47,184 bases of DNA from Burkholderiales bacterium (lineage in GTDB: Bacteria; Pseudomonadota; Gammaproteobacteria; Burkholderiales; Usitatibacteraceae): assembly GCA_017853245.1 (NCBI GenBank), contig JAFMJY010000004.1:1-47184 (forward strand), read 5' to 3'. A program made the translations under genes and the position numbers. The notes below the pieces were generated by a model. The model was given only the letters and a program-made list of their open reading frames with translations, did no database searches and was not told where the DNA came from. Below are positions 18,502 through 36,744 of this stretch, piece by piece. The first letter of the stretch is position 1. Each line of letters opens with the position of its first letter.

Positions 18502-19785
18502 CTAGAGAATCTTGAGCGAGATCATCCACTCGTCGCCCGCGCGCTTGCCGCCACGAAAGCCCGTGGCATAGCCGACCGAAAGGGTCATGTCGTACCAGTG
18601 CAGCACGCTGAAGCGCAGGTCCCATTGGGTGCCGAGGCTTGCGTAATCCTTGCGAAGGCTGGAGGAGGTGGGATCCGTCCAAAGCGCAGAGGCGAAGACG
18701 GCACCGCGAAGCCACGCCGCATAGGCACCGGGCGTGCCCAGCCGCTCGAAGATCACCGGCGGCAGGTTCACCTCCACCATTGGCCTCACGAAGCTCTTTC
18801 CGGAGATTTCGTTCAAGCCGAAGCCGGGCAGGGCGTAGTAGTCCCGGTAGCGCTTGATCTCGCGGTTGTCGACGTAGTTGTTGCCGAAGCCGCCGAAATA
18901 CCAGTTTGCGAAGGGGTCCGACCGGTCGCCGCGGGAAGCGCCGCCCACGGTGCGCAACCAGACCGACGCGTGGTTGAAGGGAAGGGGCATGCCGTAGTCG
19001 AGTCCCGCGCGCGCCTGGGGAACCGGGTCCCCCTTGGCGCGGTTGGCGTGCAGCACGGCTTCGTAGTTGAGGCCCTTGTCGTCTTCCACCGCCCCGAGCG
19101 AGCGCTTGGGGTTGGCGTGTCGGAAAGCCACCTCGCCAAACCATAGCTTGTCGGATGTGCTGCCGACGTTCTGGGCATCCGGCAGCGTGTCGATCTTGTC
19201 GTAATAGGCGAGCGTGGTCTCGATGCGCGAGAGCAGCGGCGGGTCGTAGGCGAACCAGTGCGTGTGGTTCACCTTGGCGGCAAGGCCCTTTCGCGCCCGC
19301 TTGGTGGGCCCGAAGATGTCGTAGAAGTCGGAGCGGTTCCAGGAGAGCGAGGCAGCCCAGTTCAGGTACCGGGCGTTGAGCTCCACGTGCGCCTTCTCAT
19401 CTTCCTTGAGCTTGCTGTCGGGCGTGTAGGCAGCGATGGCAGAGAAGTTCGAGAACCCTGCTGGGTCGGAGAAATTCGCCCGCACGCCAGCACCCACGGC
19501 GCCCCGGTAGCCCTGCAGGATGGGAAAGACGTTTTCCTTCTCGACGTGTCGAAGCGGGTGATACGGGCCTTGCCGCGTGATGAGCTTGGTCTCGTCAATC
19601 GTTGAGGGAGACGGCACCTGCCACTTCTTCACGATGGGGTGCTTCTCGGCGACCTCATTGCCCAGAAACCGGATGGCGCTAACGTCCTTGAGCGGCTTCG
19701 GGTCGATGATGCCGGGGACGAATCCGTCGCCGGTGTAGGCGAGCACCAGCAGGCGGCCTCCGGTGGTGGGCAAGTTAGACTTCAT
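18502..19785 (-). pseudogene. 3' part of an outer-membrane barrel gene, 5' end lost at tRNA-Leu
   Basis: The open frame codes for 427 residues. From about residue 90 onward it reads as an outer-membrane beta-barrel: amphipathic strands with alternating aromatics, tight turns and a C-terminal strand ending in EWMISLKIL. The first 60 or so residues (GRLLVLAYTGDGFVPGI and following) look like the last blade or linker of a larger periplasmic protein and there is no signal peptide, so as it stands the product could not be exported. Upstream the same frame closes at a stop inside the tRNA-Leu gene (19834-19836). I infer a decapitated member of a longer beta-propeller-plus-barrel family. A short functional protein cannot be excluded. 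Confidence 0.6.
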
Positions 19786-19800
19786 TATCCAGCACCTGCC

Positions 19801-19887
19801 GCCCGGGTGGCGAAACTGGTAGACGCAAGGGACTTAAAATCCCTCGGCCTGAAGGCCATACGGGTTCGACTCCCGTCTCGGGCACCA
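19801..19887 (+). tRNA. tRNA-Leu (anticodon TAA)
   Basis: An 87-base class II tRNA with encoded CCA. The acceptor stem pairs GCCCGGG with CTCGGGC (one G-T pair), the anticodon stem GGGA/TCCC encloses CTTAAAA with anticodon TAA, a long variable arm (CGGCCTGAAGGCC region) follows as expected for leucine, and the T-arm is CGGGTTCGACTCCCG. Discriminator base is A. It is transcribed on the plus strand, opposite to both flanking protein genes, and lies directly at the break point of the truncated barrel gene. Confidence 0.97.
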
Positions 19888-19897
19888 CCCCACTAAC

Positions 19898-20260
19898 TTA
19901 CCCGCCGTTGCCGCCAACACCCTTGGCAGGTGCCTTCTTGGCATCGCCGGCGCTCCCGCCTGCCCCCCCGTTGCCGCCGTTGCCGCCCACGCCTTTTTGC
20001 GGGGCCACCGCGCCCGCGGCGCCGTGTCCTGCGTTGCCGCCCACGCCTTTTTGCGGCGCCACCGCTCCCGCGGCACCATGGCCTGCGTTGCCGCCGACGC
20101 CTTTTTGCGGCGCCACCGTTCCCGCAGCGCCGGCCTTGCCTTTCTCATCGGCCGCCTTCTTGGCGGGCGGAGCGCTGGCGGCGGCGGGCGCAGCCGGAGC
20201 CTGGGCGTTTGCAGCGAGGGCGACCAGGTTGGCGGCAACGAGATAGGGAAAACGTTTCAT
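19898..20260 (-). CDS. Secreted Gly/Ala-rich repeat protein of unknown function
   Basis: A 120-residue protein. Residues 1-20 form a signal peptide (positively charged start, hydrophobic core, cleavage likely after ANA), then an Ala/Pro/Lys-rich linker (21-46) and three 18-residue repeats at 47-64, 65-82 and 83-100 built on G(A/T)VAPQKGVGGNAGHGAA, with a partial fourth (APAKGVGGNGG) at the end. The mature chain is almost wholly Gly, Ala, Lys, Pro, Asn and Val and is probably disordered or a polyglycine-type fibre. It has no Cys. The start is supported by a preceding GGAGCCTCC-type site on the minus strand (weak). It lies ten bases from tRNA-Leu. I do not recognise a family. Confidence 0.65.
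   Translation of the reverse strand: MKRFPYLVAANLVALAANAQAPAAPAAASAPPAKKAADEKGKAGAAGTVAPQKGVGGNAGHGAAGAVAPQKGVGGNAGHGAAGAVAPQKGVGGNGGNGGAGGSAGDAKKAPAKGVGGNGG
19961..20122 (-). repeat. Three 54-bp tandem repeats inside the Gly-rich protein gene
   Basis: Three in-frame 54-base units, each coding for 18 residues. Units 1 and 2 differ by one residue (Thr to Ala at repeat position 2); unit 3 diverges at its end (NGGNGGA in place of NAGHGAA). On the plus strand each contains the invariant core ACGCCTTTTTGCGG. The near identity at the DNA level points to recent duplication, and copy number could vary between strains. Confidence 0.9.
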
Positions 20261-20298
20261 GGAGGCTCCCGTGGAATGGCGGTTGGACGGTAGAGAGG

Positions 20299-21531
20299 TT
20301 AGCCCAATCTGGGCAACCGGGACAAACGTGGCAGACCCACGGTGATCAGGTCCAGCCGCCAGAGCTGAGCGATCAGGGCCGCGACGGGTGAACCTGAACC
20401 GTGTGCGGCTTCCGGCAGGACGAGCTTGTGGCGAGCGGCGTAATCCTCCAAGTCGCCGAGCGTCCGGCGGCCATCCATTCTGCCCAACAGAACGGCGTCG
20501 TCAACGCCGAGCGCAAGGCTCCAGTCCGGCCGGCAAGCGTGATTCCCATCAAGATGGCAGCGATATCGCCACGAGGGCACGAACTCCCGCGCGTCTGCCC
20601 GGGAAAAATCGATGGCGTAGCGGACTGGGGACCGCTCCGGGCGGCAGGCGAGAAAGAAATGGCATGCATTTCCGAAATGGAACCGCTCCATCACCGACCA
20701 CTGGCGAGGACGAGGCAGCGAGGAGACGGCCTGCAGAAACGCGCCGGAATCGCCAGGCGGTGGATGGTAGGGAGCTTGGAAGAACAGATCTTGGAACACG
20801 AGGCCAGCAGACTCGACCAGCGCAATGCAATCGCCGATCTCGTAGGCTCGCTCGCGCCGGTGCAGGAAGGTGTCGACGAGGCCGGCGTCCGAGCGCAGAT
20901 CCGGGGCAAGCTCCAGGTAGCTTTGTGCCGGGTGGTTGGAGGGCAGGGCCCCCAAGGCGTCGCGCACGAGCGCCACCGACGCCTCGTCCTGCCCGAGGCC
21001 CAGCTCGCGGAACGCCGCCTGCAGCATGCTGACCCCGGTTCGCCCGTGGCGTGCGTACAGCATCAGGGCCGCTACGCCGTCGGGCCGAAGGCAGCGTGCC
21101 AGCGATTGCATGCCCGAAACGGGCGAGGCCAGGTGGTGCAGGACACCCGTGGATACGATGAGGTCGAAGTCTCGCCTCAACCCAACCAAATCCTCGATGG
21201 GCAGCTGGCGCAACTCGAGATTGCCGAGCTGGTACTTGGACTTCAGAAACTCGTGGTGCCTGAGGGACGGGCCACTCACGTCGATCGCGAGCACCCGAGA
21301 CTGGGGATTGGTGTGCGCGATCACGGCCGCCTGGTTCGTGCCGCAACCAGCCACGAGGATATCCATATCGGGTTGGTAATCCTGATCGGGCCAGAACAGG
21401 CGATGCGAGTGGCTTGGGTCGAACCACTGCCAATGGTTCTCGAGCCACTGCGGCAGGTCGACAATGGGCTCCGGATACATCCACCGCGAATACTGCTGAG
21501 AGACGATGTCGGCGAGCGGGGTCGAGGCCAT
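20299..21531 (-). CDS. Class I SAM-dependent methyltransferase with C-terminal extension
   Basis: About 410 residues. The Rossmann methyltransferase core occupies roughly residues 55-190: motif I DILVAGCGTNQA (57-68), the acidic ribose ligand Asp84 in VLAIDVSG, motif IV FDLIVSTGVLHHLASP and the post-motif CLRPDGVAALMLYA. Residues before 55 form a helical lead, and after about 200 comes a long helical region and a final piece (near 365-410) that resembles a winged-helix. The substrate is unknown. I use the ATG at 21531; an ATG at 21570 would add 13 residues (MSARRFRR...), and neither has a good ribosome site. It is divergent from the hydroxypyruvate isomerase gene. Confidence 0.8.
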   Translation of the reverse strand: MASTPLADIVSQQYSRWMYPEPIVDLPQWLENHWQWFDPSHSHRLFWPDQDYQPDMDILVAGCGTNQAAVIAHTNPQSRVLAIDVSGPSLRHHEFLKSKYQLGNLELRQLPIEDLVGLRRDFDLIVSTGVLHHLASPVSGMQSLARCLRPDGVAALMLYARHGRTGVSMLQAAFRELGLGQDEASVALVRDALGALPSNHPAQSYLELAPDLRSDAGLVDTFLHRRERAYEIGDCIALVESAGLVFQDLFFQAPYHPPPGDSGAFLQAVSSLPRPRQWSVMERFHFGNACHFFLACRPERSPVRYAIDFSRADAREFVPSWRYRCHLDGNHACRPDWSLALGVDDAVLLGRMDGRRTLGDLEDYAARHKLVLPEAAHGSGSPVAALIAQLWRLDLITVGLPRLSRLPRLG

Positions 21532-21572
21532 GGTCCGCTCGATTATCCGACGGAATCTTCGGGCTGACATAA

Positions 21573-24392
<2,820 letters not shown>

Positions 24393-34017: not shown

Positions 34018-36744
34018 TCACGCCCCGGGATTCGCGGGGCTGTCCTTGCCGTCGCGATCGGCTGCAGTCTCGACGAGCTGCAGCGGCTCCGCTGACGCTC
34101 CACCGCCGCCACGACGGCGACGGCGAACCGGGCGGCGAGCTTCTTCCTCGGCGTCGGCGACGGCCTGGGCAGCAGCGCGCTCGGCCGCCGTCTCCACCAG
34201 CTGAAGCGGCTCTGCGGTGCCCTCGCCGGGCGAGCCGTGGCGACGCTTGCGAACGGGGCGCCGCGGCTCGGCAACGGCATCTTCGGCGTGCTGGATCACG
34301 GGTTGAAACGCAACGGTCGACGCCGGCTCGGCCTTCACAACAGGCGCCGAGATGGGAGGAGCCTCGCTCGCGGGTTTCGATGCCGGCGACTCGACGTTAG
34401 CCACAGGGGCTGCGGCTGGCACTGGCTCACGCTCGAGCGAGGACGGGGCTCGTTCAGTTGGGTTTGCCGAAGCGCCTTCCTGCTGCGCCGCATCGGGCTG
34501 GCCCTCGAAGCGCTCGCCCCGCTCGCCCCCACGGCCTCGACCGCCGCGGCCGCGACGGCGGCGGCGCCCGGTTCCCTGTCCATCCCCCGATTCGGAAGGC
34601 GCGCCCGAGCCCGGGATCAGCGCGGCTGCATCCACCGCAGCGACAGGCTCCGTTTCTCTCGGCGGGCGTTGGTCACGGGGCTCGCGTTGAGGCTGGCCGC
34701 CACCACGGCGCGGTTCGCCGCCTCGGCCGTCGCGGCGGCCTTCTCCGCCCCGATCCTGCCCATCGCGACGCTGCTGCCCTTGTCGGTCCTCGCGACGGCC
34801 CTCGCCGCGCTCGCGATCGCCTTCTCGTCCTTCGCCACGACGACGACCGTCGCCGTGGCCTTCACCACGGCCACCGCGACCTTCATCGCGCCGGCCATCA
34901 CCGCGACGCCCGCCTTCACGGCGATCGCTGCCTTCACGGGAAGTCTCGGCGGGCTTTGCCATGGCGGCTGGGGCAGGGATAGCGGGCGTGGGCTCAGGCT
35001 TCTTGAACCATCCGAAAAGCTTGTCGAGGAAACCGGCGGGCTCCTGCTCCCGCGCGACCGGTGAGCTGGCGGGGGCAGGAGCAGCCACAGGCACCGGGGC
35101 CTGCGGCGCGGGTTGCTCAGGCGTGAATGCCTTCACCAGTGGCTCCGGGCGCGGGGCGGGTTTCTCGTCTTCCTTCTTGTGGGGCGCGCCGCGGTGCGGG
35201 CGACGCTCCTCTTCCTCTTCCTTGGGCTGCGCCGGGATCTCGTAGCTCGGCAGCATCTGGTCGAGCAGCGGGGAATCGTGACGCAGGCGCTCGACGTGGT
35301 AATTGGGCGTCTCGAGCGTGGGCGTGGGCACCAGCACGACGCCGACCTTGAAGCGTGCCTCGATCTTGATGATCTCGGAGCGCTTCTCGTTCAGCAGATA
35401 GGTGCCCACGTCCACCGGCACCTGGACATGAATGGCCGCGGTGTTTTCCTTCATCGACTCTTCCTGAAGGATTCGCAGCACATGCAGCGCGGTCGAGGCG
35501 ATGTCGCGGATGAAGCCCGTGCCGCTGCAACGCGGGCAGGCCGCGTGGGTGGTTTCATCGAGCGAGGGCTGCAGGCGCTGGCGCGAGAGCTCGAGAAGGC
35601 CGAAGCGCGAGATCTTGCCCACCTGCACGCGGGCACGGTCGTGGCGCAGCGCATCGCGCAGGCGGTTCTCCACCTCGCGCTGGTTCTTCGCGCTCTCCAT
35701 GTCGATGAAGTCGATGACAATCAGCCCGCCCAGGTCGCGCAAGCGAAGCTGGCGGGCGATTTCGTCGGCCGCTTCCAGGTTGGTATTGAACGCTGTCTGC
35801 TCGATGTCGTGCCCGCGCGTGGCTCGCGCGGAGTTGACGTCCACCGACACCAGCGCTTCCGTGTGGTCGATGACGATGGCGCCGCCCGAGGGCAGGGTAA
35901 CGTCGCGACGGTAGGCGCTTTCGATCTGGTGCTCGATCTGGAAGCGCGAGAAGAGCGGCACGTCGTCACGGTAGAGCTTTACCTTGCCGACGTTGGCCGG
36001 CATGACGGTGCTCATGAACGCGAGCGCCTGTTCGTGGATGTCCGGCGTGTCGACCAGGATTTCGCCGATGTCGGGCTGGAAGAGGTCGCGAATGGCGCGC
36101 ACCACCAGGCTCGACTCGAGGTAGATGAGGCAGGGGCCCTTTTCCTCGGCGGCCGCCGACTCGATGGCTTGCCAGAGCTGCAGGAGGTAGTTCAGGTCCC
36201 ACTGCATTTCCTCGGCGTTGCGGCCGATGCCGGCAGTGCGGGCGATGAGGCTCATGCCTTCCGGCACCTGCAGCTGGTCCATCACCTCGCGAAGCTCGTT
36301 GCGGTCCTCGCCCTCGATGCGGCGCGAAACACCGCCGCCGCGGGGGTTGTTCGGCATGAGCACCAAGTAGCGACCGGCGAGGGAAATGTAGGTGGTAAGG
36401 GCTGCGCCCTTGTTGCCGCGCTCGTCCTTGTCCACCTGGACGATCATTTCCTGGCCGACCTTCAGGTGCGTCGACATTTTGCTGCGGCCGAACTCGCCGC
36501 CGTCGTTCACCATGAACTGCTTGGCGATTTCCTTGAAGGGGAGGAAACCGTGGCGCTCGGCGCCGTAGTCGACGAAGGCCGCCTCGAGGGAGGGCTCGAC
36601 CCGGGTGATGACACCCTTGTAAATGTTGCTCTTGCGTTGTTCCTTGCCGGCGGACTCGATGTCGAGGTCGATGAGCTTCTGGCCATCGACGATGGCGACC
36701 CGAAGCTCTTCGGCCTGGGTCGCGTTGAACAGCATGCGTTTCAT
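34018..36744 (-). CDS. rne: Ribonuclease E
   Basis: A 908-residue endoribonuclease that starts mRNA decay and processes rRNA and tRNA, associated with the inner membrane in many bacteria. The catalytic half shows the S1 domain (about 36-120), the 5'-sensor, the DNase I-like part ([26 protein letters not shown]) and the Zn-link Cys403/Cys406 in CPRCSGTG, numbering nearly as in E. coli. From about residue 515 the chain is disordered and rich in Arg, Gly, Asp and Pro, as expected of the RNA-binding degradosome scaffold. Its last 85 residues contain a duplicated motif. It is divergent from rluC, the usual arrangement, with a long leader. Confidence 0.96.
34054..34263 (-). repeat. Duplicated C-terminal motif in RNase E
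   Basis: Two copies of a short module at residues 828-856 and 870-897: RRPVR(K/R)RR followed by a Gly/Ser-rich spacer and then [11 protein letters not shown](E/D)R. The second copy is close to the protein end. The basic half could bind RNA; the LxLVET half looks like a short protein-binding motif. Similarity at protein level is high in the outer blocks and absent in the spacer, indicating an older duplication under selection. Confidence 0.8.

Follow-up and report, generated by a model that had tools for sequence, protein, structure and literature searches.

Next to a tRNA-Leu gene in the window, by which we mean the whole 47,184-nucleotide stretch of DNA that was analysed, lies a short open reading frame built largely of repeated units (here called the orphan), and a methyltransferase gene precedes it on the same strand. 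The features are as follows.

19801..19887, plus strand: tRNA-Leu (anticodon TAA), from ARAGORN and Rfam RF00005; a convergent neighbour that is not part of the protein
19898..20260, minus strand: orphan open reading frame, ATG to TAA, 120 aa, an exported-looking repeat protein
20204..20260, minus strand: signal-like sequence, residues 1-19, from the translation by eye and an AlphaFold2 helix at residues 4-17
20123..20203, minus strand: Ala/Pro/Lys linker, residues 20-46, from the translation
20069..20122, minus strand: repeat unit 1, residues 47-64, from TRF and unit comparison
20015..20068, minus strand: repeat unit 2, residues 65-82, from TRF and unit comparison
19961..20014, minus strand: repeat unit 3, residues 83-100, with its last third diverged, from TRF and unit comparison
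19901..19960, minus strand: C-terminal tail, residues 101-120, which has a Lys-rich turn and, at the end of the protein, part of a fourth copy (KGVGGNGG), from the translation
20299..21546, minus strand: SAM-dependent methyltransferase gene with Pfam methyltransferase domains, a possible operon partner; its start was placed, by our choice, at an internal ATG of a 632-aa open reading frame

The open reading frame, the TRF array and the translation agree on what the original prediction had described, namely a 120-residue protein with a signal-like N-terminus, a linker and three near-identical 18-residue units; it does adjoin the tRNA-Leu, the end of which is 10 bp from the convergent stop codon of the orphan. 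A Shine-Dalgarno-like GGGAG stands five bases 5' of the ATG. Read by eye, the translation opens with a basic start, a hydrophobic stretch and an ANA motif, from which we infer cleavage at ANA/Q, after residue 19. The predicted mature chain is 101 residues and 8.5 kDa, with 30 Gly, 10 Lys, no Cys and a pI of 10.2, and GVGGNAGHGAAGAVAPQK is a tryptic peptide of the protein. The nearest minus-strand promoter-like site is more than 200 bp upstream, within the methyltransferase gene; this gene ends 38 bp before the orphan start, so read-through is plausible.

TRF places the array at 19978-20132 (period 54 bp, 2.9 copies, 90% matches, score 254), which corresponds to three in-frame 54-bp units of 18 residues each plus a partial fourth copy. 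Units 1 and 2 are identical at 17/18 residues and differ at 5 nt, bearing out the low divergence claimed for them, while units 2 and 3 differ at 10 nt, mostly in the last third of unit 3, which tracks unit 2 over two thirds and then enters GGNGGNGGAGG. Indeed, as had been stated, the repeats are free of Cys and of the aromatics Phe, Tyr and Trp. The regular spacing of His and Lys proposed at the same time stands in part: Lys is present in all three units, but His occurs only in units 1 and 2 and is replaced by Asn in unit 3, and for this reason a regular His-based metal site is unsupported. The two-copy core of the repeat matched the window twice and had 0 matches in 100 shuffles, so the repeat is beyond chance; elsewhere in its own genome the array has nothing beyond one 41-bp, 80% match. 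A second short tandem repeat lies in the window at 34889-34937, with a period of 18 and 2.7 copies.

The differences between units bear on whether the frame is translated. Of the 15 base changes between adjacent units, 11 affect the third base of a codon (binomial P 0.0018), and in the minus frame the codon changes comprise 9 synonymous and 4 non-synonymous ones; since they are mostly synonymous, the orphan probably is a genuine gene. One antisense frame, which has the third positions in common with it, does nearly as well (8 synonymous, 5 not), so the substitution test alone argues only against the other four frames. This matters for an alternative in which the function of the array lies in the nucleic acid itself, DNA or RNA, perhaps in a terminator or folded structure by the tRNA-Leu, with the reading frame incidental, or in which the plus strand is the coding one. 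A plus-strand open reading frame of 112 aa does cover the array with its third positions in common with the minus frame, and one plus-strand terminator-like site lies within the array (20085-20100), but such sites number 3 against 1.1 expected, RNA folding is unremarkable relative to shuffles on both strands (z -0.65 and -1.59), Rfam at the gathering threshold returned the tRNA and no other family, and the array is not repeated in the genome apart from the short match given above. The minus frame is favoured because the start, the ribosome-binding-like GGGAG and the signal-like sequence all belong to it. We regard the DNA, RNA or plus-strand explanation as very unlikely, and the orphan as probably real, coding and exported, as judged from sequence.

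No homologue of the orphan was found in the 27 other genomes of the family, and Pfam, NCBIfam and PHROG gave no family match, in keeping with the statement that no family was recognised. Searches of genome contigs, viral contigs, phages and plasmids returned no relative, in collections some of which may omit records very near the window. In a sample of the order (399 genomes, including its own), 18 other genomes gave matches at E 2e-4 to 0.01; at 12 of these the loci were inspected and none has the 18-residue unit, and the remaining 6 have stop codons inside the match. The other hits in its own genome are at E 0.065 and 0.47, the first of them due to similar signal peptides in otherwise unrelated proteins. 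None of the hits in these searches was accepted as a relative. Low-complexity filters in BLAST-type searches may hide weak relatives, so exact DNA patterns were also searched. The two-copy DNA pattern, which fixes one codon as GGC and so does not cover all synonyms, matched nothing in genome contigs outside its own genome, with the window matched as the positive control. The motif QKGVGGN was present in 1/399 order genomes, its own only, where a reversed control pattern hit 4/399. A literature search found no paper on the protein, which is weak as evidence. At present sampling, the orphan appears confined to one species.

The motif GGNGGNGG is more widespread. Stretches coding for it occur in 53/399 order genomes, its own included, and the reversed control often falls in the same genomes. 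At 28/30 of the loci examined an open reading frame of 50 aa or more contains the motif; two of these frames are under 200 aa (L092, and L096 at a contig edge), and no short signal-bearing triplet protein was seen among these loci, the signal-peptide test applied being a crude one.

The surroundings of the orphan also differ from those in related genomes. The tRNA-Leu(TAA) was located in five sister genomes, and in all five the next gene is NuoE/NuoF-like (domains checked in G006). The order in G006 is this gene, hydrogenase small- and large-subunit-like genes, and then a gene shared with the downstream part of the window, which we take to be dienoyl-CoA-reductase-like. Between the tRNA and this shared gene, the window has the orphan, the methyltransferase and a hydroxypyruvate isomerase. 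Compared with locus L053, the replaced stretch is window 19801-24392, where the sisters have the hydrogenase-like genes. Because the sisters carry other genes there and the methyltransferase is unmatched in seven sister genomes, the replacement is read as lineage-specific, and the orphan as lying within it beside the tRNA-Leu. On the other side of the tRNA, a 427-aa open reading frame (18502-19785, minus strand) matches, at 59-64% identity, only the C-terminal part of a protein that three sister genomes encode in an open frame of 813 to 1023 aa, and a 502-aa N-terminal query from G006 has no match in the genome of the window. The 427-aa frame appears to encode a truncated protein of outer-membrane type, the cut being 15 bp away from the tRNA-Leu.

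Considering that the methyltransferase is on the same strand with a gap of 38 bp, the orphan might be its substrate or partner; together they would make up a small operon for the modification of a Gly-rich chain that is exported. Among the 399 genomes searched, 7 others have a methyltransferase homologue, four of the seven being of one genus; in a distant one, G369 (L071 5531-8543, minus strand), 14 bp separate the homologue from a Gly-rich GGX protein of 570 aa. However, with larger flanks inspected, such a neighbour is present in only 1/7 of these genomes; the gene order in that case differs, the two Gly-rich proteins are unlike in size, and a cytoplasmic methyltransferase would need to act before export. 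We consider such a partnership improbable and keep the link between methyltransferase and Gly-rich protein as a lead. The Gly-rich GGX protein of G369 is itself beside proteins with repeated YNPDVAAAV-like units.

What is new here, and absent from the earlier description, is the glycine-triplet register of the protein. Residues 54-120 can be written in triplets as GVG GNA GHG AAG AVA PQK, the same six again, and then GVG GNG GNG GAG GSA GDA KKA PAK, GVG GNG G. Glycine falls 15, 0 and 12 times in the three triplet phases. An empty phase arose in 4/400,000 permutations, in which only one unit and the tail were permuted because duplicated units would count twice. It also occurs in 25/534 windows of 67 residues from 17 other Gly-rich entries, a comparison set with one protein entered twice and with many entries chosen for holding GGNGGNGG; thus the register is non-random but of a known sequence type, and not unique. 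Runs of G-first triplets are three long in units 1 and 2 and six long in unit 3 and the tail.

The register reads as the GXX/GGX signature of polyproline-II (PPII) segments. An excerpt of PMC13243192 assigns GGX to PPII bundles rich in glycine and GXX to collagen, describes simulations that support PPII bundles in PE_PGRS proteins, and cautions that glycine richness alone is insufficient; there and in an excerpt of PMC10235112, GGX/GXX triplets are tied to PPII bundles with three to four triplets per helix.

We propose, tentatively and at somewhat less than an even chance, that the orphan is a species-restricted gene for a small exported protein with PPII strands and Lys-bearing turns, which would serve as a cationic spacer or adhesive in the envelope or matrix. 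Sec export and cleavage after residue 19 would release the basic 8.5-kDa chain. Each unit would then form one short PPII-type strand (GVG GNA GHG AAG) and, after it, a turn that bears Lys (AVA PQK), a module suggested by the link of GGX/GXX triplets to PPII bundles in the literature. Three or four such strands may lie side by side, or the chain may stay extended. In the periplasm or outside the cell, the protein would be a non-enzymatic cationic spacer or adhesive on anionic surface polymers, its length set through duplication of the 54-bp unit. Counting against this proposal, AAG AVA PQK breaks the glycine run in each unit, the register is not peculiar to the orphan, and the searches brought up no relative in which conservation could be seen. 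The candidate role suggested earlier, a polymer of the matrix or surface, is in keeping with both the composition and the Gly-triplet register. DNA binding, also suggested, has no specific support, since the mature chain is simply basic and looks exported.

AlphaFold2 run without an alignment gave a mean pLDDT of 51, a pTM of 0.17 and no structure beyond residue 17, a poor model equally compatible with disorder. It is quite possible, though we lean somewhat against it, that the orphan encodes a real exported protein which is an intrinsically disordered low-complexity chain, a young gene grown by unit duplication and perhaps of little function. A model structureless beyond the signal helix, a protein without homologue in any collection searched and a locus that is a lineage-specific replacement would all suit such a chain, whereas the empty glycine phase continues outside the duplicated units and through the tail, and the predominance of synonymous changes from unit to unit suggests selection at the protein level. 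If the unit is truly a strand-plus-turn module, as we tentatively prefer, the protein would show in minimal form how duplication of 54 bp gives rise to a repetitive fold in a bacterium, and at 8.5 kDa it would be a scaffold easily made and measured; if this module reading is false, the orphan would be another orphan low-complexity exported protein.

Several known systems can be set beside it. Like collagen-like proteins, the orphan has short stretches in which every third residue is Gly; unlike them, its run is broken by AAG AVA PQK, with a longest G-first run of six triplets, there is little Pro within its strands, and no trimerisation domain was seen. Within the same order, large surface proteins rich in Gly (e.g. 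L071, L078, L106) share GGX with Asn, His or Ala as X, but are hundreds of residues long and multi-domain, without the 18-residue unit in the loci scanned. An unrelated open reading frame of 270 residues at L080 (1476-2288, minus strand) has a Lys/Ala/Pro stretch and then GGNGGNGGAGGS at its end, which resembles part of the tail of the orphan, probably by convergence.

The PGRS domains of mycobacterial PE_PGRS proteins are Gly-rich GGX triplets, and the tail GGNGGNGGAGG is of the same type; these proteins are likewise surface-associated and of low complexity, with GC-rich in-frame repeats, according to an excerpt of PMC11939664. Relative to their GGA-GGX pattern, the orphan is GGX-like only in its tail, its units reading GVG GNA GHG AAG AVA PQK. 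It also differs in having a signal-like N-terminus instead of a PE domain (Pfam returned no family up to E 1), a size of 8.5 kDa, Lys-bearing turns and a host that, from its gene content, appears non-mycobacterial.

The PPII antifreeze proteins of springtails (snow flea type) differ from the orphan in that disulfides are predicted there, whereas the bacterial protein has no Cys. Nor was a sequence relationship found: among PDB sequences, no chain related to the orphan came up to E 1 (the best hits, at 0.15 and 0.49, are unrelated), and ice binding by the orphan is speculative. The likeness lies in a short chain with a signal peptide, putative in the orphan, and in GXX/GGX runs of three to four triplets; the excerpt of PMC10235112 describes a springtail isoform of 8.5 kDa with a 19-residue signal peptide. 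It is conceivable, though rather unlikely, that a young lineage-specific bacterial protein has independently reached a bundle of PPII strands resembling that of PGRS domains and of the springtail antifreeze proteins, its 18-residue unit of one strand and turn duplicated in frame and the product exported; its binding partner might be an ordered polymer or the surface of ice.
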